IMG/VR virus record: IMGVR_UViG_3300013233_000191
Coordinates: 1 to 38,872 of that record
DNA: 38,872 nucleotides
From: a virus
Reading direction: 5' to 3' (one strand)
This document shows, in pieces, positions 2,495 to 34,900 of the stretch. How positions within the stretch are numbered: position 1 is the stretch's first letter; every line of letters begins with the position of its first letter. The notes beneath the pieces were generated by a model. The model made no database searches and was not told the origin of the DNA. It saw only the letters and a program-made list of their open reading frames with translations. The translations under genes and the position numbers were made by a program.

Positions 2495-2624
2495 TGAACT
2501 CACAGTATTACTTGAAGAACTGGCATTTGATAAAGCGGTCAACGAAGCGTCGGCATGGGTAAAGAGCGGCGCAATGACCCTTGATCAACTTATAGAAGCG
2601 ATTGAAAAGGAGCTGGCACGATGA
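2487..2624 (+). CDS. Tiny acidic helical protein (45 aa)
   Basis: MNDELTVLLEELAFDKAV start, whole product predicted helical and acidic (LDQLIEAIEKELAR end). Overlaps both neighbours by start-stop overlaps; the tail sequence AAAGGAG inside this gene serves as ribosome-binding site for the ERF gene. No function recognised. Confidence 0.6.
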   Translation: MNDELTVLLEELAFDKAVNEASAWVKSGAMTLDQLIEAIEKELAR

Positions 2625-3172
2625 GTGATAAAATAAGCAATAGCAACATTTCAGCGGCATTGGTGAAGGCACAAACAGAGTTCAACAAGGCTTTGAAAAA
2701 AAGCACCAATCCACATTTTAGGTCAAAGTTCGCTGATTTGGCATCATGTGTAGATGCAGTGAAAGAATCATTGAACAATAACGGTATTTTTCTAACACAG
2801 AGGCCTATCAACTGCGAAAATGGTGTGAAAATTGAGACACTGTTCATCCATAGTAGCGGCGAAAAGATGAATATGGGCGCGTTTTTTGTGCCAGCTGGCA
2901 AGAAGGATGCGCAAGGGTATGGCAGCGCATTGACCTATGCGAGACGATATAGCTTGATGACCGCTTGCGGCATTGCACCAGAGGACGATGACGGCAACGC
3001 AGCGACAAGCGCACCACAAGCCCCAGCATTCGATTTAAACGCCGCAGCCAACAGCATCAAAGCCGCGTTGACGGTACACGAGCTTAAAACAGCATGGGAA
3101 GCTATCCCCAAAGCAGAGCAAAGCCGCTTTGAAGCATTGAAGAACAGCCAAAAAGAAGGATTGGCAGCATGA
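2621..3172 (+). CDS. erf: ERF-family single-strand annealing protein
   Basis: 183 aa. The pattern LVKAQTEFNKALKKSTNPHF near residues 14-33, GSALTYARRYSLMTA near 106-120 and a GIAPEDDDGNAA end to the core are characteristic of the ERF superfamily (P22 Erf-like). The role is annealing of complementary ssDNA for recombination and genome circularisation. It sits in an operon with an exonuclease and SSB, making a complete phage recombination set. Strong AAGGAG site upstream. Confidence 0.9.
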   Translation: MSDKISNSNISAALVKAQTEFNKALKKSTNPHFRSKFADLASCVDAVKESLNNNGIFLTQRPINCENGVKIETLFIHSSGEKMNMGAFFVPAGKKDAQGYGSALTYARRYSLMTACGIAPEDDDGNAATSAPQAPAFDLNAAANSIKAALTVHELKTAWEAIPKAEQSRFEALKNSQKEGLAA

Positions 3173-3879
3173 GTAACAGGTCACTTATAACGCTAATAAA
3201 TAATGAGCCTAGAGCCAATACACTAGAGATAGCGCAAGGGTTTGGTAGAGAGCACAAAAACGTGCTTCGTTTGGTCAAAAAGTACAAATCACATTTTGAA
3301 AAGCTAGGGGTACTTCGTGAGCGTAGGTTTAAGACAAAAGGCACGCCGTTTAACACCTTTGATTTAAATGAAGACCAATCAATATTTTTAGGCACGCTTT
3401 TTGATAATAGTGATGTTGTTGTTGCCTACAAGCTACGGCTAACCCAAGAATTTTCACGAATGCGTAAAGAGCTTATGCGTATCGCAAGCAACCAGTCCAA
3501 CGCCCAATGGTTAGAAGCGCGGCAACAGGGCAAACAAACGCGGCTAGAGCAAACGGATGTGATTAAGGCGTTTGTTGATTATGCCACAGCGCAAGGTTCA
3601 AAAAGCGCAAACATGTATTACATGAACCTAACCAAGATGGAAAACAAAGCTTTGTTTGTGCTTGACCAAAAATATCCAAACATCCGCGAAGTGTTGGACT
3701 ATCGCCAAGTCGGCGTGATGTCATCAGCTGACCAAGTGGTAGAGCGTGCGCTCAAAGAAGGTATGGATAAATCTTTGCATTATAAACAGGTGTATATCTT
3801 GGCGAAAGACCGCGTGCATGAGTTCGCACGCATCATAGGCAAGTCGGTTATCCCAGAGCAAGCGAGGTTAGCAGCATGA
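3169..3879 (+). CDS. Rha family phage regulatory protein
   Basis: 236 aa. The N-terminal 100 residues match the Rha pattern (NTLEIAQGFGREHKNVLRL, then FNTFDLNEDQSIFL and VVAYKLRLTQEFSRMRKEL). The C-terminal half (about 110-236) is helical and unlike the KilAC domain of the antirepressor. The start overlaps the erf stop within GGCAGCATGA; the same junction recurs before the exonuclease. Probably a DNA-binding regulator inserted in the recombination operon. Confidence 0.85.
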   Translation: MSNRSLITLINNEPRANTLEIAQGFGREHKNVLRLVKKYKSHFEKLGVLRERRFKTKGTPFNTFDLNEDQSIFLGTLFDNSDVVVAYKLRLTQEFSRMRKELMRIASNQSNAQWLEARQQGKQTRLEQTDVIKAFVDYATAQGSKSANMYYMNLTKMENKALFVLDQKYPNIREVLDYRQVGVMSSADQVVERALKEGMDKSLHYKQVYILAKDRVHEFARIIGKSVIPEQARLAA

Positions 3880-4757
3880 TTATTGAACAATACGAACAAG
3901 GTACAGACGAATGGTTGGCATGGCGTAAGTCGGGAATCGGTGCATCTGAGATAGCGGCGGTTATTGGTATCAGCCCTTTCAAGACAGCGCACGGTTTGTG
4001 GCAAGAGAAGACAGGCGCGGTTGAGGGGTTCAAGGGCAATGCAGCTACCCAGCGTGGTAGTGATTTGGAAGAAGTGGCAAGGGTTGCTTATGAAGTTGGG
4101 CGCACGGATGTAAACACAGCCAACACTTGTTTAACCCATGATAGCTATACCTTTATCAAAGCGTCTTTGGATGGATGGATTGATGATGAAATCATCATTG
4201 AAATCAAGTGTCCGCTTGCTAAAAACTATGAAGCCATGAAAGAGGAAATCCCAGCCTATTACATTGCCCAGATGCAGCAGCAAATGCTGGTAAGTGGTGC
4301 AAAACGGTGCGTGTTTTGGGTGTTTGACCCTGAGTTGGGCGGCTATGCGACAATGGTTGAAGCGGATAGTGAATACTTTGAAACCATCATCAAAGCGGCT
4401 ACGGACTTTTGGCATAAGGTCGAAATGTTCACATGGCAATCAGGCGGCATTGATGACCTTATCAATGAGCTTGCACACCGCAAAGCTATTGAAGCAGCGG
4501 CTACAGAGGGGCGCAAGGCGATTGAAAGCGAATTGATGAAGCAACTGCAAAGCGAAGGCATCAAAGCGGCGGCAAGTGATGTTGCTAAGGTGACGTTGGT
4601 TAGTCGTAAAGTGGTGGATAAGGATGCTTGTGCGCTCAATGCTGATTGGCTTGTGGCTTCCAACATGGCAAGCGAAGGCAAGGCGGATATGGCAGCTATT
4701 GAAAAGGATTACAAAAAAGATGGTGCGAGTTATATTAAGCTGACCCTCGCAGCCTAA
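3876..4757 (+). CDS. YqaJ/lambda-exo-like recombination exonuclease
   Basis: 293 aa. Residues 1-50 carry the YqaJ signature (EQGTDEWLAWRKSGIGASE, VIGISPFKTAHGLW). RGSDLEE at 60-66, then D99 (SLDGW) and E109-x-K111 (IEIKCPL) form the expected D-ExK nuclease site. Should digest 5' strands to give 3' overhangs for the ERF protein. Its start overlaps the Rha gene. After it comes an intergenic region with two hairpins before ssb. Confidence 0.92.
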   Translation: MIIEQYEQGTDEWLAWRKSGIGASEIAAVIGISPFKTAHGLWQEKTGAVEGFKGNAATQRGSDLEEVARVAYEVGRTDVNTANTCLTHDSYTFIKASLDGWIDDEIIIEIKCPLAKNYEAMKEEIPAYYIAQMQQQMLVSGAKRCVFWVFDPELGGYATMVEADSEYFETIIKAATDFWHKVEMFTWQSGGIDDLINELAHRKAIEAAATEGRKAIESELMKQLQSEGIKAAASDVAKVTLVSRKVVDKDACALNADWLVASNMASEGKADMAAIEKDYKKDGASYIKLTLAA

Positions 4758-4763
4758 AAGATT

Positions 4764-4788
4764 GCGCCGTTTGATACCTTTGCGGCGC
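4764..4788 (+). promoter_or_regulatory. Hairpin after the exonuclease gene
   Basis: GCGCCG at 4764-4769 pairs with CGGCGC at 4783-4788 around a 13-nt loop. No U-run follows, so it may be an mRNA structure or processing site rather than a terminator. Confidence 0.45.
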
Positions 4789-4802
4789 ACATCGGATAGG
4801 TT

Positions 4803-4842
4803 GCCAGTCTCTACTACCCAAGAATGACTGGCGTTTAATTTT
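4803..4842 (+). terminator. Weak terminator-like hairpin in the ssb leader
   Basis: GCCAGTC at 4803-4809 pairs with GACTGGC at 4826-4832, followed by GTTTAATTTT. It could be an attenuator between the exonuclease and ssb; the loop is long (16 nt), so confidence is modest. Confidence 0.4.
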
Positions 4843-4856
4843 AAGGAGTAATGACA

Positions 4857-5261
4857 ATGAATGTATACACATTTACAGGACGATTATCACGCGATAGCGA
4901 AGTGCGACACACGCAAGGCGGCATGGCGATTTGTTCGTTTACCGTGGCTGTTGATTATGGCTTTGGCGATAAGAAGGGGACAAACTGGATTCGCTGCTCG
5001 ATGTTTGGCAAGCGTGCGGAAGGCGGTTTGCCTCAATATTTGGTGAAAGGTACGCAAGTTGCCGTGTCTGGTGAGCTTAAAATAAGCGAGTACACAGATA
5101 AAGACGGCATGACCCGTACGAGTGTTGATGTGAATGTTGGTGATGTTACTTTGATTGGCAGCAAGCAAGACAATCAGCAAGCCGCGCCGCAAAGAAACCA
5201 GCAGCAGCCAATGCAGCAACCAGCACAACAATCAATGCCTGATGATGACATCCCATTTTGA
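4857..5261 (+). CDS. ssb: Single-stranded DNA-binding protein
   Basis: 134 aa from the ATG at 4857, which has AAGGAG at a better spacing than the ATG at 4851. OB-fold start MNVYTFTGRLSRDSEVRHT, then FTVAVDYG and WIRCSMFGKRAEG; a Gln-rich linker follows and the acidic tip DDDIPF that recruits partner proteins. Completes the ERF-exonuclease-SSB recombination set. Immediately followed by the first cassette-associated gene, with only one base between stop and next ATG. Confidence 0.95.
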   Translation: MNVYTFTGRLSRDSEVRHTQGGMAICSFTVAVDYGFGDKKGTNWIRCSMFGKRAEGGLPQYLVKGTQVAVSGELKISEYTDKDGMTRTSVDVNVGDVTLIGSKQDNQQAAPQRNQQQPMQQPAQQSMPDDDIPF

Positions 5262-5262
5262 C

Positions 5263-5472
5263 ATGGGTAAAAAAGAAGACACAATTTTAATATTTGCAGC
5301 GCGATACGCACACTCTAGAAATACAGCAGCCGCGTTTGTGGTTGTAGGGCAAATACTGGCGAATTGGCACATGCTGAGCAAATCAACAAAAGAGCAGTTG
5401 AAGAGAGAAGCTAAAAACGAAGCTGTATATAATTTATCCGACTGGGCGAAGTTGAAAGAACTGAAAGCCTAA
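5263..5472 (+). CDS. Hypothetical protein at the left edge of the cassette array
   Basis: 69 aa, begins MGKKEDTILIFAARYAHSRN; the TILIFAARYAHSR pattern resembles small phage proteins of unknown function. It starts one base after the ssb stop, so no cassette start (GTTRRRY) precedes it. Its stop codon TAA lies inside the R'' core GCCTAAC of the first attC-like site. It may be a resident phage gene that gained an attC, or a cassette that lost its 5' end. Confidence 0.65.
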   Translation: MGKKEDTILIFAARYAHSRNTAAAFVVVGQILANWHMLSKSTKEQLKREAKNEAVYNLSDWAKLKELKA

Positions 5473-5525
5473 CGGCACGAATCAATGGCAAGCGTAGCGC
5501 AGTCCATTGGATGAATTGGTTATAT
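5467..5525 (+). other. attC-like site 1 (59 bp)
   Basis: R'' GCCTAAC 5467-5473, R' GTTATAT 5519-5525, with the two cores not complementary. The inner arms CAATGG and CCATTGG carry an extra G, as in the extrahelical bases of attC hairpins. Inner sequence identical to site 7 and one base from site 5. Crossover expected between G5519 and T5520. Confidence 0.88.
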
Positions 5526-5553
5526 TGAAGCATGAAATATAGGAGGTGACAAA

Positions 5554-5928
5554 ATGAGCAGTGAAGAATATCCATTATACCCAGCTTTAACGGAGCAAGG
5601 GAAAGAAGAAGCTCAGAGAATCATGGACAGCTTCAAGCCTAGATTGGTGGAGCTTATGGACGAGGTTTTAGGGAAACTATACACAGAAGTTAGTTTTTAT
5701 GTGGAAAGCGACCACTGGGATAACTACAGAAATTCTTTGATGAATGGATTTCGCGGTTACGGCAACGGAAGCACAAACCATGCCCATGATTTCAAAGAAT
5801 TGCGCCAAGAAATATATAGACATAATAAAGAAGATATTATCAAAGATTTGAATCAAGACCTTAATGATGAAAACAATAAACTAATGGAGCAAGTAGATTA
5901 CTTGAACCAAAAACTGCGAGAGATATAG
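5554..5928 (+). CDS. Cassette 2: hypothetical helical protein
   Basis: 124 aa, begins MSSEEYPLYPALTEQGKEEA and ends in a coiled-coil-like stretch (NDENNKLMEQVDYLNQKLREI part, about 105-124). The Shine-Dalgarno AGGAGGTGA is a perfect match 4-5 nt before the ATG. Cassette spans 5520-5986 and starts TTATATT; its own R'' reads AATATAA, an exact 7-bp complement. No family recognised; highly charged soluble protein. Confidence 0.8.
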   Translation: MSSEEYPLYPALTEQGKEEAQRIMDSFKPRLVELMDEVLGKLYTEVSFYVESDHWDNYRNSLMNGFRGYGNGSTNHAHDFKELRQEIYRHNKEDIIKDLNQDLNDENNKLMEQVDYLNQKLREI

Positions 5929-5930
5929 AA

Positions 5931-5992
5931 ATATAACGGCAGGCAATAAGCTGCCGAGCAACGCGATGTCAGCTTGATTTGATTGGTTAGGG
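5931..5992 (+). other. attC-like site 2 (62 bp)
   Basis: R'' ATATAAC 5931-5937, R' GTTAGGG 5986-5992. Inner arms AATAAGCTG and CAGCTTGATTT pair with a bulge. A family of its own within this array. Crossover expected between G5986 and T5987. Confidence 0.85.
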
Positions 5993-6228
5993 CGAAGGAG
6001 GATTATTATCAAGATAACAGGCGAATTCGTGTTTGCTGCGGAATATACTTATATTGTGGTTCTGTGTGCGATATGCGAAGGATTGAAACAGATGATGTAA
6101 TATGGACATGCTGGAGTTGTAACGAAACACTCAAGGGCAGTTGTGGGTTGGATATAATCAAAGGCAACGAAGTTGTTAAACGCCCTAAGAGAAAAGGCAC
6201 ACTCTGGGGATATTGTGAGAAGCCCTAA
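5983..6228 (+). CDS. Cassette 3: possible zinc-ribbon protein, start unclear, maybe frameshifted
   Basis: The open frame runs from a TTG at 5983 (inside attC site 2, so outside the cassette) to the stop at 6226-6228 in the next R'' (CCC TAA C). Inside the cassette the first ATG in frame is 6073, with no ribosome-binding site. A strong GAAGGAGG at 5994-6001 instead precedes ATT-ATT-ATC in another frame, reading KITGEFVFAAEYTYIVVLCAIC and ending near 6100. CAIC in that frame and CWSC in the other would together make a zinc ribbon. This suggests a start-codon change and a frameshift near 6080-6100. Function unknown. Confidence 0.4.
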   Translation: MVRAKEDYYQDNRRIRVCCGIYLYCGSVCDMRRIETDDVIWTCWSCNETLKGSCGLDIIKGNEVVKRPKRKGTLWGYCEKP

Positions 6229-6285
6229 CGACCTGCATGAGGGGCTGGAGCGAAGCGGAAGTCCCTCTCGATGCTTTGGTTAGAT
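6223..6285 (+). other. attC-like site 3 (63 bp)
   Basis: R'' CCCTAAC 6223-6229 matches its own cassette start TTAGGG. R' GTTAGAT 6279-6285. Inner arms GCATGAGGG and CCCTCTCGATGC pair with extra bases. Longest site in the array. Confidence 0.87.
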
Positions 6286-6302
6286 GATTCACAGGAGGAA
6301 AA

Positions 6303-6524
6303 ATGACACAAGATGAAATAGAAACATCATTTAGACGGATAGGACTAGCTCTTACTGCCTGCCATAACACCATTACAACTGATGATATTGATACACGCAC
6401 AGATGATACGCATTGGCGCATAGACAACAAAAAAGAACTGAAAGACCTTGCATTAATAGAGCAACTCATGGCTAAAAGCATTGATACCTGTCCCTTATGT
6501 TCTGATTGTAATAAGACCCTTTAG
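6303..6524 (+). CDS. Cassette 4, gene a: hypothetical protein
   Basis: 73 aa, begins MTQDEIETSFRRIGLALTAC; good AGGAGG site. Ends with a short Cys cluster (CPLCSDCNKTL), which lies in the region overlapping the opposite-strand KTSC gene, so the C-terminus may be shaped by that overlap. The cassette (6280-6765) starts TTAGAT and ends R'' ATCTAAC. No family recognised. Confidence 0.65.
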   Translation: MTQDEIETSFRRIGLALTACHNTITTDDIDTRTDDTHWRIDNKKELKDLALIEQLMAKSIDTCPLCSDCNKTL

Positions 6525-6675
6525 AAGTAGATGAAATAAAGCTATCAAAAACATGTTGTGGGACATTGCAAAAATCATAGGTGCTGCCTTGATTGAACGT
6601 GATTTTCATCCCTTGAGATATAGGGTCATAACCTATTGCATGTATAGCACTTGAGTTTACAGGAATCATATCCAT
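6472..6675 (-). CDS. Cassette 4, gene b: KTSC domain protein, reverse strand
   Basis: 67 aa: IPVNSSAIHAIGYDP near the start, then YDFCNVPQHVFDSF and SKGSYYNQNIRDRYQ match the KTSC domain (named from the lysyl-tRNA synthetase C-terminus), common as stand-alone phage and plasmid proteins of unknown role. Strong AAGGAGT site upstream of the ATG. It is the only gene of the array on the minus strand and converges on gene a with a 53-bp overlap. How it is transcribed within this operon is unclear; an own promoter was not identified. Confidence 0.85.
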   Translation of the reverse strand: MDMIPVNSSAIHAIGYDPISQGMKITFNQGSTYDFCNVPQHVFDSFISSTSKGSYYNQNIRDRYQCF

Positions 6676-6712
6676 TTGTTTTACTCCTTGTTATTGATTG
6701 CAGTTTATTTTC

Positions 6713-6771
6713 ATCTAACGGCACAGCGTAAGAGGCTGGCGAAGCCTATCCTCTTGATGCAATTGTTAGGC
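6713..6771 (+). other. attC-like site 4 (59 bp)
   Basis: R'' ATCTAAC 6713-6719, R' GTTAGGC 6765-6771. Inner arms GCGTAAGAGG and CCTCTTGATGC pair imperfectly. The R'' is an exact complement of the cassette start TTAGAT at 6280. Confidence 0.87.
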
Positions 6772-6784
6772 AGGAAGGAGAATA

Positions 6785-7000
6785 ATGAAGATAAATTGTT
6801 CAAAAATAGCTAACCACACAGATATGATGGCGATAATTGGTATAGCGGCCCTCATTTTGTCATTTTCGATTGCGTTTTTGTTGGCTGTTTATTTCAATAC
6901 CTTTTGGGCTGGATTTTTCAGCGCCATGATTACTTTAAAATGGTACGATTGGATATACAAACCGATTGATAGTTTGTTAAATAAGTTATGGAAAGCCTAA
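6785..7000 (+). CDS. Cassette 5: small membrane protein
   Basis: 71 aa; hydrophobic residues about 14-55 (MAIIGIAALILSFSIAFLL, then VYFNTFWAGFFSAMITL) suggest two membrane helices. Start chosen for the GGAAGGAG site. Stop codon TAA lies within R'' (AAA GCC TAA C), giving a WKA end. Cassette 6766-7047. Unknown role; membrane peptides are frequent among integron cassettes. Confidence 0.78.
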   Translation: MKINCSKIANHTDMMAIIGIAALILSFSIAFLLAVYFNTFWAGFFSAMITLKWYDWIYKPIDSLLNKLWKA

Positions 7001-7053
7001 CGGCACGAATCAATGGCAAGCGAAGCGCAGTCCATTGGATGAATTGGTTAGGT
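6995..7053 (+). other. attC-like site 5 (59 bp)
   Basis: R'' GCCTAAC 6995-7001, R' GTTAGGT 7047-7053. CAATGG-family site; differs from sites 1 and 7 by a single inner base (GCGAAGCG for GCGTAGCG). Confidence 0.88.
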
Positions 7054-7066
7054 GTAAGGGGGCGAA

Positions 7067-7276
7067 TTGAAAAAGATAGGCGAAGCGCGATATAATGAAA
7101 CGGTAAATGTTGATTTGCTCTGGGATGATAAAGCAAAAGGCTTGAGGCGGATTATGGCACTAACGCCGTCAGGTGGGCATTTACCAGTAACAGCTAGTTT
7201 TTATGAAACACTAGAGGACGCGGTATTGGATATACCGAAAGAGTTCATCGGACACTGGCGCATTTACCACACCTAA
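7067..7276 (+). CDS. Cassette 6: hypothetical protein
   Basis: 69 aa from a TTG at 7067 with AAGGGGG upstream. Reads KKIGEARYNETVNVDLLWDD, then TPSGGHLPVTASFYETLEDA; no family recognised, probably a small alpha-beta protein. Ends CAC ACC TAA, the stop lying in R'' ACCTAAC, which complements the cassette start TTAGGT. Confidence 0.7.
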   Translation: MKKIGEARYNETVNVDLLWDDKAKGLRRIMALTPSGGHLPVTASFYETLEDAVLDIPKEFIGHWRIYHT

Positions 7277-7329
7277 CGGCAAGAATAAGCAGCGAGCGTA
7301 GCGAAGTCTGATTGATGAAATTGTTAGGC
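7271..7329 (+). other. attC-like site 6 (59 bp)
   Basis: R'' ACCTAAC 7271-7277, R' GTTAGGC 7323-7329. Member of the AATCAG/CTGATT family (also sites 9, 11, 12), here with AAGCAG in the left arm. Confidence 0.86.
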
Positions 7330-7351
7330 TGAAACAATAAAGGGGATTGAT

Positions 7352-7555
7352 ATGATAAAAGAAGCGGAAAACGCAGAAACAATACGAATAAATGTAGTAC
7401 TTAAAGATGGCACTGAATTTTTAGCTAAAGACATACCTGCACAGCCACTAGGAGAACACGAAACCCTTGTGTCCTTTTGGCACAGGGGAGTGCTGAGAAT
7501 ACACCCAATGAGTGAGGTTAAATACTTTGAGTTTACATTTGAGAAAGAAGCCTAA
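7352..7555 (+). CDS. Cassette 7: hypothetical protein
   Basis: 67 aa, begins MIKEAENAETIRINVVLKDG and ends FEFTFEKEA; likely a small beta-rich protein, no family recognised. Its leader TTAGGCTGAAACAATAAAGG is shared almost exactly with cassettes 11 and 13. Stop TAA inside R'' GCCTAAC. Confidence 0.75.
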   Translation: MIKEAENAETIRINVVLKDGTEFLAKDIPAQPLGEHETLVSFWHRGVLRIHPMSEVKYFEFTFEKEA

Positions 7556-7608
7556 CGGCACGAATCAATGGCAAGCGTAGCGCAGTCCATTGGATGAATT
7601 GGTTAGGC
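7550..7608 (+). other. attC-like site 7 (59 bp)
   Basis: R'' GCCTAAC 7550-7556, R' GTTAGGC 7602-7608. Inner sequence identical to site 1, about 2 kb away. Confidence 0.9.
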
Positions 7609-7623
7609 AAAATAGGAGGGTGC

Positions 7624-7830
7624 ATGAGCAGTTTTTCCTGCGGAAAATGCAACACGGATATTATAGACACACGCAATGGGTATGTTACTGAATGCGAACA
7701 TTTTAAGATTGAAAATAGAACAAGCAGGGGCTGCCCGAAATGTGGAGTGCAGATATTCAGCCCTTTTGGGACTGGCGAACTCATACACGATGTAAACACC
7801 TGTAAGGTTTTAGGATTTGGTAAAGCCTAA
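7624..7830 (+). CDS. Cassette 8: zinc-ribbon-like protein
   Basis: 68 aa from the ATG at 7624, with AGGAGGG upstream; an in-frame ATG at 7594 lies in the attC of the previous cassette and is rejected. CGKC at residues 6-9, Cys-Glu-His further on and CPKCG near 43-47 suggest a metal-binding fold. Stop inside R'' GCCTAAC. Function unknown. Confidence 0.78.
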   Translation: MSSFSCGKCNTDIIDTRNGYVTECEHFKIENRTSRGCPKCGVQIFSPFGTGELIHDVNTCKVLGFGKA

Positions 7831-7878
7831 CGGCTTGCATGAGAGGCGCGAAGCGTCCACTCGATGCTTTTGTTATAC
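7825..7878 (+). other. attC-like site 8 (54 bp)
   Basis: R'' GCCTAAC 7825-7831, R' GTTATAC 7872-7878. GCATGAG-family site with arms GCATGAG and CTCGATGC, close to site 10. Confidence 0.87.
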
Positions 7879-7898
7879 CCATAAAGGAGATTATGAAC

Positions 7899-8180
7899 AT
7901 GACAGCATATAGAAAGATACCTATCGATATTGAAGCCACACAATGGCACAAGAGAGGAGACCACCCCGAAGTTAAAAGCGGATGGCTTGGAGATACTGGG
8001 CAAGTACATTGCAATACGCACCCAGAATTTAATGTGTTCGGTATGACTAAAGTTGATTGCATCCAAACGCTTGAAGGATGGCACAGAGTTACCGCAGGTG
8101 ATTTTATCATAACAGGTATTAAGGGAGAGCATTACCCTTGCAAGCCCGATGTATTTGAAGCCACATACGAAAGGGTATAA
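7899..8180 (+). CDS. Cassette 9: conserved phage-type small protein
   Basis: 93 aa from the ATG at 7899 (AAAGGAG at better spacing than the ATG at 7893). MTAYRKIPIDIEATQW at the start and GDFIITGIKGEHYPCKPDVF near the end match a small family very common in tailed phages, of unknown function. The cassette start TTATACCC and R'' side GGGTATAA are complementary over 8 bp. Presence of a typical phage gene as a cassette supports capture of phage genes into the array. Confidence 0.85.
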   Translation: MTAYRKIPIDIEATQWHKRGDHPEVKSGWLGDTGQVHCNTHPEFNVFGMTKVDCIQTLEGWHRVTAGDFIITGIKGEHYPCKPDVFEATYERV

Positions 8181-8233
8181 CGGCGAAAATAATCAGCAAG
8201 CGTAGCGAAGTCTGATTGATGAAATTGTTATAA
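8175..8233 (+). other. attC-like site 9 (59 bp)
   Basis: R'' GTATAAC 8175-8181, R' GTTATAA 8227-8233. AATCAG-family inner sequence. The R'' is an exact complement of the start of cassette 9. Confidence 0.87.
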
Positions 8234-8255
8234 GGCAACATAAAAGGAGAAGGAT

Positions 8256-8474
8256 ATGAAAGATAGAATGATAGCAAGCGAGGCATTATTTGGCTTTGTG
8301 GGATGGCTGACTTCGCGCGAAGAAGTGACAACAATGAGTACAAACCACAACGCAGCCCCTGCCGCCGATTTAATTAAGCAATTCTGCGAGGAAAACAAAT
8401 TAGAAGAACCTCGTGCTGGTTGGGAAAATAACTTAATACACCCGTCTGGCGAATGTAGTGGGAAAGCCATATAA
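8256..8474 (+). CDS. Cassette 10: phage-type small protein
   Basis: 72 aa, MKDRMIASEALFGFVGWLT then a WENNLIHPSGECSG end. I recognise this pattern (ASE-fGf-gWLT ... NLIHPSGE) from small proteins of many tailed phages; function unknown. Good AAAGGAG site. Its cassette starts TTATAA while its R'' reads ATATAAC, the one case in the array with a mismatch between ends. Confidence 0.8.
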   Translation: MKDRMIASEALFGFVGWLTSREEVTTMSTNHNAAPAADLIKQFCEENKLEEPRAGWENNLIHPSGECSGKAI

Positions 8475-8522
8475 CGACCAGCATGAGGGGCGCGAAGCGT
8501 CCACTCGATGCTTTTGTTAGGC
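8469..8522 (+). other. attC-like site 10 (54 bp)
   Basis: R'' ATATAAC 8469-8475, R' GTTAGGC 8516-8522. GCATGAG family, nearly identical to site 8. The sixth R'' base does not pair with the start of its cassette, which may be a point change after insertion. Confidence 0.84.
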
Positions 8523-8546
8523 TGAAACAATGAAGGGGACACAAAG

Positions 8547-8696
8547 ATGCAATGGATTAGCAAGTATTATGACATCTTGGCTATAGCTTTTATAGCTCTT
8601 GGACTGGCACAGTTACACACCATCGCAATAGGTGCGATTGCATTCGGAGTGGGGCTTATATTGCTGAAAGTTATTAAAAGCATCCCACATTATTAG
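8547..8696 (+). CDS. Cassette 11: small two-helix membrane protein (49 aa)
   Basis: Begins MQWISKYYDILAIAFIALG and continues with IAIGAIAFGVGLILL; two hydrophobic segments at about 8-22 and 25-42. GAAGGGG lies upstream. The stop TAG comes just before R'' (TAG AA GCCTAAC), so the stop is not in the core here. Cassette 8517-8751 is the smallest of the array. Function unknown. Confidence 0.72.
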   Translation: MQWISKYYDILAIAFIALGLAQLHTIAIGAIAFGVGLILLKVIKSIPHY

Positions 8697-8698
8697 AA

Positions 8699-8757
8699 GC
8701 CTAACGGCACGAATAATCAGTAAGCGTAGCGAAGTCTGATTGATGAAATTGTTAGGC
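8699..8757 (+). other. attC-like site 11 (59 bp)
   Basis: R'' GCCTAAC 8699-8705, R' GTTAGGC 8751-8757. AATCAG family, one base different from site 12 in the inner part. Confidence 0.88.
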
Positions 8758-8773
8758 AAAATAGGATATGAAC

Positions 8774-8980
8774 ATGATAGGATTACTAAAGCTTTGGTGG
8801 AAAAGAGTAACTTGCCAGCATAAATATGAACTCGGAATATGGGAATTTTCTCATCGAGAGGAATCAATATGGAGCGAAGGAGTATCTATTGAAATTGAAT
8901 ACACCAATGTGTATGAACGCAATGACGTATGCTCGATTTGTCATAATGTTGCAGTAAGACGCAAAAAGATAGAAGCCTAA
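8774..8980 (+). CDS. Cassette 12: hypothetical protein with Cys pairs
   Basis: 68 aa from the ATG at 8774, preferred over 8768 because of spacing from AGGA. Contains CQH near residue 14 and CSICH near 53-57, a possible single zinc site. Cassette leader TTAGGCAAAATAGGA is shared with cassette 8. Stop inside R''. Confidence 0.72.
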   Translation: MIGLLKLWWKRVTCQHKYELGIWEFSHREESIWSEGVSIEIEYTNVYERNDVCSICHNVAVRRKKIEA

Positions 8981-9033
8981 CGGCACGAATAATCAGCGAG
9001 CGTAGCGAAGTCTGATTGATGAAATTGTTAGGC
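8975..9033 (+). other. attC-like site 12 (59 bp)
   Basis: R'' GCCTAAC 8975-8981, R' GTTAGGC 9027-9033. AATCAG family. Last complete site of the array. Confidence 0.88.
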
Positions 9034-9057
9034 TGAAACAACATAGGAGACGTGGGT

Positions 9058-9249
9058 ATGGGGAAAGGCATTTTAGCGGATAAATTTAGCCTATGGTACG
9101 ACTGCGCAGCCCCTCAAATACGGGGGACAATATTCAGCTATCAGTTTTCTAAAAAAGAGGTCAAAGAGATATGTGACGAGTTCGCAAGCGAAGAACCTTA
9201 CGTTTTTGAAGAGACGGCTATGAGGAAACAACAAAAGGGTGCGGTATGA
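9058..9249 (+). CDS. Cassette 13, gene a: hypothetical protein
   Basis: 63 aa from the ATG at 9058 (AGGAGA upstream at 8 nt; the GTG at 9052 is too close). Reads MGKGILADKFSLWYDCAAPQ then FSKKEVKEICDEFASEEPY. The stop overlaps the start of gene b (ATGA), so this cassette carries a two-gene operon. No family recognised. Confidence 0.7.
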   Translation: MGKGILADKFSLWYDCAAPQIRGTIFSYQFSKKEVKEICDEFASEEPYVFEETAMRKQQKGAV

Positions 9250-9467
9250 AAGAATATCGGTTATCGATTATAATAACTGGCGGCATGGTAAACATAGAAA
9301 GTGACGAGTTTATATACGGTAACATCCTCCGCACAAATAAAGAAGATGTGGTTTGTGGCTTCCAAGCATCGGATAGACTTGAGCCGCACCGTGAAGATTT
9401 TGAGAAAATTCTAGGGGACATATCCGCTGAAATTTACAAACTACAAGATTTAATAGACGAAGCCTAA
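9246..9467 (+). CDS. Cassette 13, gene b: hypothetical protein
   Basis: 73 aa, begins MKEYRLSIIITGGMVNIESD and ends YKLQDLIDEA; translationally coupled to gene a. The stop TAA is inside the last R'' (GCCTAAC, 9462-9468), which complements the start of this cassette at 9028. Function unknown. Confidence 0.7.
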   Translation: MKEYRLSIIITGGMVNIESDEFIYGNILRTNKEDVVCGFQASDRLEPHREDFEKILGDISAEIYKLQDLIDEA

Positions 9468-9468
9468 C
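9462..9468 (+). other. Truncated attC: R'' half-site at the right end of the array
   Basis: GCCTAAC is followed by TAGGTAATACGACTACC with no inner palindrome and no GTTRRRY before ninB. The last attC has therefore lost its right part, or the array end was fused to phage sequence. Confidence 0.75.
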
Positions 9469-9528: not shown

Positions 9529-9921
9529 ATGCACCAAGCCAAACGGTTCAGAATTGATACAAACAATATTGAAAGCGTGATGCCACGGCTTGGCGCATAT
9601 ATCCGTGAGTTTGTGAGAGAGCAGGGGAAGCCGCTGGCTATTGGTGTAGCAGAAGATAAAGCAACACGCAGCGGTCAACAAAATAGGCGGCTGCATAAGA
9701 TTATCGGATTGTGTGCGGATGAAGCAGGTTATACGATTGAAGAAATGAAACTGACATTTAAAACAGAGTTGTTAGAGCCTTTGGAAATCATCAAAGTGAA
9801 AGGGTTTCGTGTACCGATTTATCCGAGCACAGCGAACATGAAAGTAGCAGAGTTAAATCAGTTCATGGAGGGCGTAGAGAACTTGGCAGCAGCTTGGTAT
9901 AATGTGCTTCTAAATGATTGA
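9529..9921 (+). CDS. ninB: NinB family recombination protein
   Basis: 130 aa. The pattern RSGQQNRRLHKIIGLCADEA near residues 45-65, then TFKTELLEPLE and STANMKVAELNQFMEGVENLA matches NinB, a lambda recombination-mediator (Orf) family protein. AAGGAAT upstream. It would act with ERF, exonuclease and SSB upstream of the array; ssb and ninB were probably neighbours before the array arose (inference). Confidence 0.88.
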   Translation: MHQAKRFRIDTNNIESVMPRLGAYIREFVREQGKPLAIGVAEDKATRSGQQNRRLHKIIGLCADEAGYTIEEMKLTFKTELLEPLEIIKVKGFRVPIYPSTANMKVAELNQFMEGVENLAAAWYNVLLND

Positions 9922-28034: not shown

Positions 28035-28960
28035 TGGCAAACCCATTTAATTTTTCACAAGGCATCCAAGGCGACACCAACCAACAGATTTACAACCAAC
28101 GCACCAACGAGCTATCGCAAGTTGATTTGAACCGCGCCCAAGGGATGAATCAACTCTCCGAGCGTGACTTAAATACGCAAACCCACGGCAACCGCGTTGC
28201 TTTAAGGGAAGCTTTCGGTGGCATGAATGCGCGACAATTAGAAGCCGCACAATTTGGACTCGCCAACCCCGAACAAATGGCGCAAATTGGCAAGAATGCA
28301 GCACAAGGACAGCTTCAAGACGCTGCCCTTTTTGGTGAGCAAGACCTGCAAAACAACGCCCATGCCTTCAACAAATCAAATTCAATCTATGACCAAACAG
28401 GCACAGGAACGCGCTTAAACGTGTATGACGGCAGCCAACGCATCAGCGATTTAGACCGCGCTACGGCGAACAAATCAGCGTTTGATATTGTGCAAGGCAA
28501 AGCTGAAATTGCCCAAAATAGAGTCAACGAAGGCACGCACGATTACAGCATCCAAGACATGACCGACTTGCGTAATTATTACTCTGTAACCAATGAAGAT
28601 GGCACAGTTTCCGCCTCACCGTATTTGCAGCAAATGCTTGGCGGCGCAACACAAGGGCTTGATTTACCACAAGGGACAATGGACTTTGTGCAGCAATTTG
28701 TAACCAAAGCAGCGGCAGACCGCGTACCACCAGCGCAAATTCACAGCATGTTAGCCGAGGCTTTGGGCAAAGGTGTCCAGTATGATCCCAAAGGTGACAG
28801 GGGAACGTTTAGGTATTTTGATTCACCAGCCGTAAACTTTGATGCGAATGCAGCGTGGAGCGACCAACAGGGGCAACCAAACCCTGCGGCAGGAGCAGCT
28901 AGCCCAGCCCCTTATGGCAATATTCCCAGCGCATTCTTAGAAGGAAGAAAAATGTTATGA
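28034..28960 (+). CDS. Internal virion protein, T7 gp15-position
   Basis: 308 aa, AGGAGGGG upstream. Gln/Asn-rich helical protein (QIYNQRTNELSQVDLNRAQG). Position between the small ejection proteins and the polyvalent protein suggests that it belongs to the ejected core complex. No enzyme motif seen. Its stop overlaps the next start by ATGA. Confidence 0.6.
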   Translation: MANPFNFSQGIQGDTNQQIYNQRTNELSQVDLNRAQGMNQLSERDLNTQTHGNRVALREAFGGMNARQLEAAQFGLANPEQMAQIGKNAAQGQLQDAALFGEQDLQNNAHAFNKSNSIYDQTGTGTRLNVYDGSQRISDLDRATANKSAFDIVQGKAEIAQNRVNEGTHDYSIQDMTDLRNYYSVTNEDGTVSASPYLQQMLGGATQGLDLPQGTMDFVQQFVTKAAADRVPPAQIHSMLAEALGKGVQYDPKGDRGTFRYFDSPAVNFDANAAWSDQQGQPNPAAGAASPAPYGNIPSAFLEGRKML

Positions 28961-31900
28961 GCCAGTTATCCGTTGATGAAAAAACAGGCAAGGTCGGCAA
29001 GTGGGGAGGTAGTGGTTGGGATGATGTAAGGTCGCGCCGTGATGATGGCGTGGAGCAAACCCTCTACCACAACGGCAACAGCTACGAATGGAAAACAGAT
29101 GTAGGCACAGGCAAAGCCCTAGCACGAGGCACAGGCGAAGGGTTCGCAGGATTAACCAATGCTCTCGCCACCGTGGGCAGTGCTATCCCTATGGCAGGTG
29201 ATGCTATTGCTGGCGTTTTTGGCAGAGAGGGCACACCTGCAAGCGATTGGTATCAAAATAATGTTGTCGGCTCAACACGCGACAACCTCAAATTTTTTCA
29301 ACCCAGCGCAAATGAACACTACGATACAGGCGCAGAAGTAGGCAGGGTAGGCGGCAATCTTGCCAGCATCTTTGCAACTGCAATCCCAGCAGGCATGGTA
29401 AACTTCACAGGTCGTGCTGGTGCAGCTTTATCACCTATGGCGCAAAGCCTCGCCAAAGGTACAGCGGCAGCGGAGACATTCGCCGTCCCAGCTACCATCA
29501 ACCGCGCACAAGATTTGGTAGAGAATGGCGTTGATACCGAAACCGTCATGCAAGGCGCTGCATCCAATTATGCCACCAATATGGCAATGGGCTTACTTCC
29601 TGCATCAGCAGCAGGTAATCTTCTTACGCGCGGACTAACTGGCGGCGCGTTAAGCGTAGGCACTGGTTCTGCACAGCGCGGCGCAGAGGGCGCAATCCTT
29701 GGCGATAAATACGCCAAATTTGCCGAAGACCCATTTGATACTAAAGCTATGGCTTTTGATGCCGTGCTTGGTACAGGATTTGGCGCAGCTTTTGGTCAAC
29801 GCCCCAACAACACAGGCAACAAAACCAAGCAAGATGTGGATATTGAAAAGCAGCTTGAAGACGAGGCGACCGCCACCCTTGATACCCAACCCCTTGCCCT
29901 ACCTGCCCCCGAAATGGTCAACGCCGTTTCACCTGAAGGCGTGGTGTCGCAAGTTGCCGCCCCAGTTCAGCAACCAACCCAACCAAGACCAGCCGACCCA
30001 ACAGGCGCATTAGAAGCACAAAACGCTATCCACGGCGACAGGATGAAAGCCCAAGCCTTGCCGCCAGTTGATATGCCTAACCCCTTCCTAGACATCATGG
30101 GCGGAGCTGAGCAATTCAGTCCCCAAGCCATCGAAGCTAAGAATGCAGCCTTAACTGCCCAAGCCGAGCGCAGCGCAAAAGCCAAGCAAGCCTCTGATAT
30201 GGCAGAGGCTCAATTAAGACGGGAGTTGCACCAAGAGATATACCCTCAAGTGCAACAGCAGCAAGAAGCGATTGCGCCAGTGGACAGCCCTAGCCCTATG
30301 CAAATAAGAAGGGCTGAAAAGAGGGCGCGGAATATAGATAAGCGCATCCGTAATGATGCTACCATCAATGATGACGGAAGCGTCACCCTGCATGGTAATC
30401 AAAACAGAATAGCGGAAATATTCCGAGACTTAGGCGTAACCAAAAGCATGAATGATGGCACTGGTAAGCTTGTGCATAGGCAGAATGATGTTAATAAAGT
30501 CCTAGATTATCTTACTAATGACCAGAGCCAAGCCAAGAACCCTTTTGACTTTGGAGCAGCAGAGCGTAATGCAGAGGCTCAATTTTATAAAGATGCAGAG
30601 GCTGAATATAAAGCCGTCGAAGCCAAGCGCGTAGAGCAGCAACGCATTGAAGCCGAGAACGCAGCCCTTACCGCCAAAGCAGAGCGCAGCGCGAAAGCCA
30701 CGGAAGCAGCGAGACAGCGAAAGCAGGTATCACACAGCGATAGCCTTGAAACATTTATCCGCAAGCATGGCGGCATCAGTGATGGCGACTTTTCACGCAG
30801 CTTTGCCACACGACAAACAGGCAACAAAGGCAACAACTTCCAAGGCGGCTTAACCACCTACAACGGCAAATCAGCCGATGCAATGGCAGAGCTTGCCCAT
30901 GAAGCTGGCTATATCCAAGAGCGTAGCCCTCAAGCACTGCACGATGCGCTATCCCTTGAAATCAACCAAGGCATCAAGCAACACACACCCGAACAAATCC
31001 AAGACCAAGCCGAAGCGGATTATATCGCAGCGCAGAAAGAACCTGACATAAGCACACCTGCTATATCCGAAACAGGCAAGGTTTCTGATGCAGAAGCTTT
31101 ACCCTATGATGATGTTCCGTTTAGCCGTAGCGAAGGCGAGAGCAAGGCTTTTGTTAAAGCGTCTGATGGCTCTGAAAGCTTTGGTGAAATAGATGTTGAT
31201 ACCGCAGCTACAATGAAGCGACAGGCTGGAGTCATCCGTTTGCGTGTTGGAAATAAAGACCTTGGCGAAACACATATTAACAGAGTTGCTAGGTTAAAGC
31301 AGATTAAAGCATTTGGTTACGATGGTGCTAAGGCTTTGGTGGAGGATGTAGCAAGGAATTATAACCATATTTATCATGGTCGCGGTAGCACCTTGTTGTT
31401 GGTTAAAAAAAATGGCAATCCAAAGGTTGCTTATATTCAGTTAGAGCCATCGGCTAACGGTGATTTTTATGATGTGAAAAGTGCGCTAGTGACACGCAAG
31501 GACTTTTTCGATAAAAAAATGCCGCTTTGGGAAAGGGCGCAGACCAATCAACTCAAAGAGTCCTCTAGCGCGGTCACGAGCCAAAGCGACAATACCCCAA
31601 GCATAGACCAGCCCACGCCCAAATCGCAAGCAAAAACTATCGAGCGCATGGTGAAGAACGGCGGCATGGGTGCGTTGCTGGAAAGCGGCAGGGTTAAAGT
31701 GGTGCAATCTGCTAAAGATTTGAAAGGAAAATTGAAGCACATGGTTGCTTGGCATGGTTCACCGCATGATTTTGAAGCATTTAACAATAATAAGATAAAC
31801 ACTGGCTTCAAGACTCAAAATTATGGTTATGGCTTTTACTTCACTAGCCATAAAGAATTTGCTAATTACTATAAGAACAGAGCTATTAAGCGCGGTCAAA

Positions 31901-34900
31901 AAGATGCTAAGTTATACAAGGTTGATATACCTAATGAAACGAACTTATTGGATTGGAATAAACCATTACTAGAGCAGGACGAAGCTTTGCAAAAAGCAGT
32001 TGGTAACATGGGTTATCCTTATGTTAAAAACGGCTCTCAATTAAAACATGAGCTTGAATTTGATTTGCGTGCTAAAGGCGTTGAAGATTATGCAAAAGAA
32101 GCAAGTAAGATTCTTCGCGCCAATGGTATAAAAGGCTTTAAGTATGAATCACAAGGGAGGGTGAACTACGTTATATTTAATGATAAAGATGTTTCAATCA
32201 CTGAAAAATATAGCAAGCAAGGCGACATCCAAGGCGCGTATGATCCTAAAACTGACACCATCTATCTGGTTGCAGACGGCTTAGAAAAAGGCGATGTGAA
32301 GCGCGTACTTGCCCATGAAGCATTGCACAGGGCTTTAGAGCGCATGAATAAAGCAGAGGCAGGAAGCAAGGAACACACCCAGCGCACCAATATCTTTAAG
32401 GGTTTGGCAAACATGGAAGCCAAAGGCGATGCTGAAGTATCTGCATGGTTCAGAGATGCACGAAAAGCCGCACAAGTGGACAAAGATAAGCCATACTACC
32501 ATGAAGAGATTGCAGCCTATGCTGTGGAGCAATACTTGCGTCATCCAAAAAGTTTACCTGATCGCGTGAGGCGGTTTGTGAAGTCTATGATTGCCAAGTT
32601 GAAACGCTTGATTACCCAACAAACAGGGCATGATTTCAACACATTTAAAGATGCAGACTTTACCGAAATTGCACACGCTGAATTGAAACGCATGGGCAAA
32701 GAAGCGGACACGAAAAGCAAACCGATAGCGTCAGATAGCGCCCAAAATGCGGTGGATTTTAGTAAAAACACCGACTTTGGTAAGAAACACACCCAATTCA
32801 AACACGATGCCCAAGGCGCAATCAAGCAGCTTATGCAGGATAAAGACGGTGAAGCGGTTGCGGCATTGCATCATAAAGATGTGGGCGATATTGATTTAGT
32901 TTGGGGGGAAGAAGGCACAGGCAAAAGCGATGGTTTCGGCTTGGCTAAATTGGTGAAATACCACCCCGAAGTGGTCGATGATTTGCAGGGTGTGCTTGAT
33001 GGGTTGGAGGTTAAGACTAAGAGTAAAAACAGGGTAAATCTTGAATCTGAAAATCATAAAGTGGCGATACGCTTAGACTGGAACAATCAAGATAAAAACT
33101 GGCTACTCACTGCTTTTGAGAAAAACAAGGATGGTGCTGGAAGGACGACAGACATTTCCAAACTTGCGAGCAAAGATGACACAGCTCCCTTTGCAACCAA
33201 CCTTGATACCAAAAGCATAGACAGTAATGCGGGCAAGGTCAAATTCAGCCGAAGCACACCCAAAGACGAAGCCACCGAAGCCAAAGAAAACCACGCGGCG
33301 GTCAAGTCTGCTATAGCTGGTTATCTTGGAGGCAAATACAAAGCCGCCGCCAAACACCTAAGCGCATTCGGAAAAAATGTATTCTTTAAACCTGCCCAAG
33401 TCGTGCGCGATTATGGTGTGAAACATGCGCGGATTATTTCCGATAAGTTCCTAGCCGAAGATGGGCACGAGAAACGCACCAGCGATGCCCCCGATTTGAT
33501 GACACAACGCTACCTTGAAACAGGCAAGTTTCTAAGCCGCTTCCAAGATATTATGCAGCCGTTGAACAATCGCTTTGTGATGTTTGATATGGATGCCAAC
33601 GGCTTGTTTAGAGGCTTACCCAGTATGGATAACTTACGCATAGTGCGTGGCTTACGCACTGGCAAAGTGTTGCCACGCTTGAAAGAAGAAGCCCAAGCAT
33701 TGCGCGACCTACTCAATGATGTGCGCGCCTACGCCATTAAGGCAGGGCTTGATATTGGTGAACTACCTAACTATTTCCCTCGCGTGTATGACGTGGAGAA
33801 AATATCCAAGAACTTCGATAAGTTCGTGAAATTCTTAGAAGTAGATGGCGGCTACAGTAATAAGGATGCGCAAAAGATAGCTTACAAGATTATCAACAGC
33901 GAAGGCAGCCCAGAGCTTTACGGTGACAGCAACGGACGCGTTGAAGTCAATGAAGCTGGCGAAGTGTTTACACGCCGCGCGGATGGTGCAGAGGGCTATG
34001 CCAGCAAGAAGTCTTACGAGAAAGGGCGAACGATTGATATTCCTGAGAAACGTTTGAACAAGTGGCTAGTCAATGATGTGCAAGCCGTGTTGACCCAACA
34101 TATCAGCAACGTGGTACGCCGCGCTGAATATGCTAGGCGCTTTGGTGAAAGCGAAGGCAAACTTAATGCTGATGTGCGCAAGATGATCCAAGAGCTGGAA
34201 GATGAAGGCAGGGCTAGAGAAACGCACCAAGCAGTGCGCCAAGTCTATGATATGGCTGATGCAGCTATGGGCAAATACAAGCCTATTGATAGCGAATTTT
34301 GGCGGAACAATAACCGCGTGTTGTCTGATGCTATGGTCATGGTTCACCTACCATTTGTGACATTCTCATCCATGCCCGAAATCTTTGCACCTATCGTGCA
34401 TGGTGGTCGCCATGCGGTGATTCCTTTGGTGAAAGCAGCATATCAACATGCCTTCAAGCAATCGGTCAATGGCGTGTCGAAGTTCACCATCAACAAAGAA
34501 TTGTTTGATAAACACGAATGGACAAAGACCGCTGAAGAGATGGGCTTGATTACACAGGCTGCATTACAGCAAGCCGTGCAAGCAAGAATGGGTCATAAGA
34601 CAGGCAAGTGGACAAACCGCTTTATCCGCGCAACCATGCTTGAGCAGGTGACAAGCTTTCAAAAGGTAGTCGCCAACGAAACATTTAGGGCAATGATGAA
34701 TAGCCACGCCAAGAAATTGGAAAAAGGTGCAACTGGCAAGAAGAGTGAGCAAATCTTGCAAGACATCCACGACTATGGTTTGAGCGAAAGCCAAGTGAAA
34801 GCGTGGGCAAAAGATGGCACAGGTGAAGCAGAGCTACGCATGGCAGGTGTGAATTTCAGCAACAAGGTCATCTCCACGCCCAACGAAGCCAACACGCCTC

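Follow-up and report, generated by a model that had tools for sequence, protein, structure and literature searches.

Integrase-less clusters of attC sites (CALINs) have been described in phages since 2023, with TJE1, PH101, P12002L and MW202573 as examples (Qi et al., PMC9892861). Five of the six phage attC sites tested in that work recombined with the integron integrase IntI1, and the PH101 sites did so at G^TT; the gene direction of TJE1 and PH101 is presented there as typical, and Vibrio phages are described as carrying fragments of host integrons (PMC9892861). Cassettes can also insert outside integrons, at sites called attG, as was reported in 2024 (Loot et al., doi 10.1038/s41564-023-01548-y, as related in PMC12901181). 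The window analysed here is the whole 38,872-nt (38.9-kb) IMG/VR virus record IMGVR_UViG_3300013233_000191, from an environmental phage. The phage is tailed, and its early recombination operon very probably harbors an integrase-less array of 12 true integron cassettes that runs backwards to the operon. The phage CALINs of Qi et al. are likewise integrase-less attC arrays in tailed phages, with DNA methyltransferases among their cargo; when rescanned with the model described below, the main-text examples have three to five sites, as opposed to 12 in the early recombination operon of the window. The original prediction, made from the sequence alone, knew of no described phage with an array of this length. 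That doubt about novelty is resolved in part: phage CALINs are not new, though the published examples that were rescanned have few sites (PMC9892861).

The sites were detected with a self-built covariance model (R1) of 22 attC sites, which came either from class 1 integron plasmids or from arrays adjoining bona fide IntI genes, none of them from the window; the model stands in for that of IntegronFinder. With the filters off, it recovered exactly 12 attC sites at 26.9-44.7 bits (E 8.6e-8 to 6.6e-4), and the next-best place in the window scored 12.4 bits (E~1). The sites are imperfect palindromes of 54-63 bp each, located within 3.6 kb between ssb and ninB, and the positions that had been predicted for them were borne out by this search. 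Core, L boxes and bulge are retained in 12 of 12. Several attC groups, A, B and C among them, are interspersed along the array, groups A and B consisting of near-identical repeats. A search of the window with Rfam gave no family at or above its gathering score. The TIGR02249 profile gave no match to IntI, nor was there a candidate, in the 38.9-kb record, which may be incomplete; the predicted integrase-less array between ssb and ninB is thereby upheld. As in other CALINs, at least two attC sites are clustered on one strand, no integrase gene is found nearby, and one or two small genes accompany each site. The locus is not a complete integron, as the record has no intI; attI and the promoter Pc were not sought separately. 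The right limit proposed at 9468 is also correct, since a lone core, GCCTAAC, is present at 9462-9468 without an attC hairpin.

All 12 sites are on the minus strand (27-45 bits), opposite to the early operon, while on the plus strand four of them scored 8-9 bits and the other eight fell below listing. The marks of attC direction, namely the TAACAA start, the extrahelical C in L'', the GAC after L'' and the CGTTA end, are similarly all found on the minus strand. They were calibrated on class 1 integrons, whose genes are known, and on IntI-linked arrays by the direction of IntI, and both R1 and the hand rules give sense genes in class 1 integrons and IntI-adjacent arrays. That the plus strand might be the attC top strand was considered and ruled out by the class 1 sites and the direction of IntI. 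DNA folding of three sites gave more stable hairpins for the plus strand than for the minus strand, in agreement with the plus strand being the attC bottom strand. The sites had been thought to be oriented as the early operon, which is not the case, and the names R'' and R' assigned to their ends must be swapped because attC is on the minus strand. Genes in the same direction as their attC are the rule in common usage, although no formal requirement for a CALIN; here, 11 of the 12 cassettes carry antisense genes only.

Read along the operon strand, each cassette has the layout C-attC-leader-RBS-ORF-RYYYAA (RBS, ribosome-binding site; ORF, open reading frame). The attC of a gene is the one that precedes it and not, as first proposed, the one that follows. 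The TAA inside the core RYYYAAC is the stop codon in nine of 12 cassettes and also in the phage gene 5263-5472, which precedes the array. The core GTTRRRY is present at both outer edges. Deletion of the array would leave ...CTGAAAGCCTAA^CTAGGTAATACG, in which GTTAGGC on the minus strand would straddle the stop codon of 5263-5472, and the predicted empty site, a candidate attG target, is CTGAAAGCCTAACTAGGTAATACG. An empty site that straddles a stop codon is what would be expected of integrase insertion at an attG-like site, and the lone core at the right edge may be the founding insertion site or the entry point. As in the attG insertions of Loot et al. (2024), to judge from the account given in PMC12901181, the cassettes would have entered through a site other than attI or attC, and a simple GTT core is left at the edge; unlike in those, the array is long and the site overlaps the stop codon of a phage operon.

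Evidence that such cassettes move between phages comes from L162 and L169, a pair of phage contigs that are otherwise unrelated but have a 651-bp segment in common at 94% identity, with both ends at GTTRRRY. The segment comprises a complete attC followed, on the gene strand, by its gene, and the next attC is not part of it. The gene codes for a Mom DNA-modification protein (PF25680). Its boundaries fix the cassette unit, and hence the polarity, independently of the covariance model. The idea that cassettes can be swapped thus gains support from integron-type exchange in other phages, the window phage itself being without a close relative. Two other pairs of contigs were set aside: L161 and L209 are near-identical (99.8% over 3.75 kb) and diverge 114 bp before attC, inside a cassette gene and away from the core, and in the case of L190 and L224 one boundary of the shared cassette is a contig end, so that it was not counted as proof. 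Another phage, L023 (IMGVR_UViG_3300023313_000004), has attC sites near-identical to groups A and B of the window, and attC1 with its leader is 85% identical to it over 81 bp. No IntI is encoded in L023. This phage also has several DNA methyltransferase genes and a PAPS-reductase-like gene (3606-4376, 2776-3555, 1579-2583), and its contig ends share attC sequence with a 59-bp overlap, which would fit either a circular molecule or a break at attC repeats.

Mobile stem-loop cassettes occur in T4-type phages, and the hairpins of the window might similarly be regulatory or boundary elements that resemble attC, with modules swapped by homologous recombination (Erf/RecE) between repeats. Three observations fit such a role: the hairpins occupy the 5' untranslated regions of the genes, near-identical repeats make up groups A and B, and Erf, RecE, SSB and NinB are all encoded by the phage itself. 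This explanation is nevertheless very improbable: 12 of 12 sites fit a model made from bacterial integrons and have both the extrahelical base and the core in place, the L162/L169 cassette ends at G^TT on both sides and outside the repeat interior, attC3 is identical to a site adjoining an IntI gene, and the attC sites of PH101, which have the same polarity, recombine with IntI1 at G^TT (PMC9892861). Alternatively, the array might be a fossil that was inserted once and is now fixed, its attC sites persisting fortuitously or because they serve as terminators or RNA structures. The lack of IntI in the record and of relatives that could reveal change would fit a fossil, but the retention of core, L boxes and bulge in all sites, the mixed order of several attC groups and the occurrence of common cassettes in otherwise unrelated phages render it unlikely. 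The attC sites of the window are, rather, predicted to be recombined by IntI.

The reversed polarity is not confined to the window phage. About 40 viral arrays were collected by searching viral contigs for a generic attC motif without regard to strand and then applying the covariance model, and polarity was called from the direction of the longest ORF between neighbouring attC sites relative to that of attC. ORFs were allowed past the attC edge; a count in which they were cut there missed a Mom gene whose stop is inside the next attC and was not used. Antisense and sense cassettes number 79 and 27 in viral arrays, against 4 and 35 in bacterial ones (p=1.6e-12). Mostly antisense arrays make up 34 of 42 viral and 1 of 19 bacterial arrays, the antisense-major to sense-major ratios being 34:5 and 1:17, respectively. 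Among phages annotated in GenBank, which are isolates or complete genomes, PH101 and MW202573 are antisense and TJE1 is sense; for PH101 the rescan departs from the typical direction described by Qi et al. An ORF stops exactly at the core TAA in 37 of 84 viral antisense cassettes; the same holds, in 18 of 27 arrays, for the gene that precedes the first attC, where 17.6% would be expected for TAAC at large (p=2e-8). Statistics of flank direction from raw ORFs were too noisy and were discarded. In a 66-kb phage contig, L138, eight attC sites occupy 1.9 kb (1-2123), with an MT-A70 methyltransferase antisense to attC. No report of reversed polarity of phage arrays or of a stop codon inside the core was found, in a search outside of which lay most subscription journals, preprints and supplements.

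No IntI was found in 34 of 35 viral array records, nor in the window. The single record with IntI, L202 (L202/L214, IMGVR_UViG_2834908352_000001), is classed as viral. It has a complete IntI, sites like Vibrio cholerae repeats (VCR) and sense genes, and corresponds to a prophage that either carries a Vibrio chromosomal integron or lies next to one. The Vibrio-type prophage integrons L202 and G126 resemble the window in being attC arrays in viral-classed records, but differ from it in their full IntI, VCR-like sites and sense genes.

The closest bacterial counterparts are the sedentary chromosomal integrons of Zetaproteobacteria (for example, G045 and G020/Ghiorsea), which have the same attC type. 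The core of attC3 is identical over 58 bp to an attC in Ghiorsea, where the matching site is the one first encountered next to IntI, and to one in a further zetaproteobacterial bin. Of 78 Zetaproteobacteria, 32 match the array, almost always at attC3, and 26 have IntI. In contrast to the window phage, with no IntI in its record and antisense genes, these integrons have IntI and sense genes; in G045, for instance, IntI is followed by five gene and attC units, all sense. A contig of a zetaproteobacterial bin encodes relatives of the capsid (48% identity), portal (39%) and terminase (37%) of the window. Given the attC3 core identity and this structural-gene relative, the host is probably a zetaproteobacterium. 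On a 13-kb contig of such a bin, L252, the terminase ORF (3508-5931) has 807 aa versus 461 aa in the window, and the match begins after an insert that looks like an intein, in a relative of the window phage.

One might regard the array as an ordinary CALIN, a piece of a host chromosomal integron that was captured whole and whose orientation is unremarkable. The identity of attC3 with zetaproteobacterial sites and the presence in one cassette of a KTSC gene in the normal sense direction are in favor of such a capture, for which the Vibrio phages that bear pieces of host integrons would be a precedent (PMC9892861). A captured host segment would, however, be expected to be sense, like the zetaproteobacterial arrays, whereas 11 of 12 cassettes of the window are antisense only. 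A strict attC pattern for groups A and B had no match in a collection of genomes of 84,980 species, while both groups are present in phage L023, and the antisense pattern recurs in many phages, all of which makes capture as a whole improbable.

If the window feature is instead an array built by cassette insertion, the first cassette would have been inserted by a host-supplied integron integrase, its target being an attG-like GTTAGGC antisense to a phage stop codon (GCC-TAA-C). The stop codon would stay intact, and insertion would be tolerated as harmless in a compact operon because the TAA is retained. Further cassettes would enter at the same cores. Transcription would come from the phage early promoter, without an integron Pc, and genes antisense to attC would be selected because only those along the operon would be expressed. 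Host cassettes being sense and phage cassettes antisense, each would be silent in the platform of the other, and two partly separate cassette pools would result from this mutual silence. It is tentatively proposed that the polarity is kept by selection for operon direction and makes host and phage cassettes mutually silent. It is also conceivable, at a similar level of doubt, that phages hold their own reversed-polarity cassette pool, served by the host integrase, and trade accessory, probably anti-defence, genes among themselves.

Several points weigh against this interpretation. No close relative of the window phage was found by megablast against phages or by a RecE search of IMG/VR, and relatives by NinB and TerL share that one gene only or are distant; gain or loss in the window phage is therefore unseen and its empty site is a reconstruction. 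A large terminase of one family was found in 16 of the 35 viral array records, and some of the records that it does not confirm may be non-phage. In TJE1, a bona fide phage, the cassettes are sense, several of the viral arrays are of mixed polarity, and polarity calls, except in the GenBank phages, depend on ORF length. The host assignment stands on a single attC type and a bin that is possibly contaminated. Finally, the reason for the polarity, i.e. insertion at a stop codon and silent exchange, is one that we infer.

The plus-strand ORFs of the array (Table 1) are real, since most of them have an RBS, 7624-7830 is conserved in L023 and 7893-8180 matches phrog_419. The gene 7624-7830, which codes for a Cys-rich protein, is 90% identical to its L023 counterpart over 60 residues and 82% identical at the nucleotide level over 181 bp. 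The KTSC gene 6472-6675, on the minus strand (PF13619, E 6.3e-23), is the sole cassette gene in sense with its attC, and the attC3/KTSC cassette appears to have come recently from a host integron. A leader, TGAAACAA..AAGGGGA/AGGAG, is conserved behind different attC groups at 7328-7346, 8521-8539 and 9032-9050 and recurs in L023, so that leader and attC seem to be exchangeable modules. In other phages the cassettes encode the Mom protein, C5 and MT-A70 methyltransferases and PAPS-reductase-like proteins. As such DNA-modifying enzymes fit protection from host restriction, the benefit of the small accessory cargo is, by analogy, likely to be anti-defence.

The surroundings of the array are those of a tailed phage with a lambdoid-type early region. 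The gene order is antirepressor Ant, Erf, Rha-like regulator, RecE-like exonuclease and SSB, followed by the cassettes and, 3' of them, NinB, a VRR/resolvase-like nuclease, a late activator, terminase, portal and capsid. The strand opposite to the early operon encodes an O-like initiator and a DnaC-like loader. The ORF at 28957-35448 (2163 aa) takes up about one sixth of the genome and probably codes for a virion-associated protein injected with the DNA.

Table 1. Coordinates of the attC sites, cassettes and flanking genes in the window; bit scores are those of model R1.
Feature	Position	Strand	Remarks
Erf	2621-3172	+	upstream of ssb; PHROG match (ssb/Erf/Rha/RecE region: phrog_44, phrog_2324, phrog_2657, phrog_434)
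Rha-like regulator	3169-3879	+	upstream of ssb
RecE-like exonuclease	3876-4757	+	upstream of ssb
ssb, left flank of array	4851-5261	+	phrog_44, E 9e-47
Phage gene, 69 aa, phrog_11947-like, directly after ssb	5263-5472	+	stop is core TAA of attC1
attC1 (group A), left array edge	5467-5525	-	27.7 bits; core RYYYAAC gives TAA stop of 5263-5472
Cassette 1: attC1 + ORF 5554-5928 (124 aa)	5473-5936	+	
attC2	5931-5992	-	28.9 bits
Cassette 2: attC2 + ORF 5983-6228	5937-6228	+	stop is core TAA
attC3	6223-6285	-	31.2 bits; 100% over 58 bp to L116 and L050 (Zetaproteobacteria)
Cassette 3: attC3 + ORF 6303-6524 (+) + KTSC-domain gene 6472-6675 (-)	6229-6718	+	
attC4	6713-6771	-	28.8 bits
Cassette 4: attC4 + ORF 6785-7000 (71 aa, membrane-protein-like)	6719-7000	+	stop is core TAA
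attC5 (group A)	6995-7053	-	30.2 bits
Cassette 5: attC5 + ORF 7067-7276	7001-7276	+	stop is core TAA
attC6 (group B)	7271-7329	-	33.3 bits
Cassette 6: attC6 + ORF 7352-7555	7277-7555	+	stop is core TAA
attC7 (group A)	7550-7608	-	33.0 bits
Cassette 7: attC7 + Cys-rich ORF 7624-7830	7556-7830	+	stop is core TAA; gene common to phage L023
attC8 (group C)	7825-7878	-	42.7 bits
Cassette 8: attC8 + ORF 7893-8180	7831-8180	+	phrog_419, E 6.7e-29; stop is core TAA
attC9 (group B)	8175-8233	-	26.9 bits
Cassette 9: attC9 + ORF 8256-8474	8181-8474	+	stop is core TAA
attC10 (group C)	8469-8522	-	44.7 bits, E 8.6e-8
Cassette 10: attC10 + ORF 8547-8696 (49 aa, membrane-protein-like)	8475-8704	+	
attC11 (group B)	8699-8757	-	30.3 bits
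Cassette 11: attC11 + ORF 8768-8980	8705-8980	+	stop is core TAA
attC12 (group B)	8975-9033	-	35.4 bits; 55 bp identical to attC of phage L023
Cassette 12: attC12 + ORFs 9052-9249 and 9246-9467	8981-9467	+	weak phrog_10844 (9246-9467); last stop is core TAA
Lone core GTTAGGC (plus strand GCCTAAC), closes array	9462-9468	-	same core as 5467-5473; no attC here by R1
ninB/Orf recombination mediator, right flank of array	9529-9921	+	phrog_72, E 1.8e-12

The finding concerns an uncultured phage with a probable link to iron-oxidising Zetaproteobacteria. If the interpretation is correct, integrons would be a tool shared by bacteria and phages, and the direction of genes relative to attC would separate phage from host cassettes. 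It would also provide a testable reason for the silence of phage genes in host integrons and of host defence cassettes in phages. Accessory genes of phages, likely directed against host defences, could then be mined through their attC sites.

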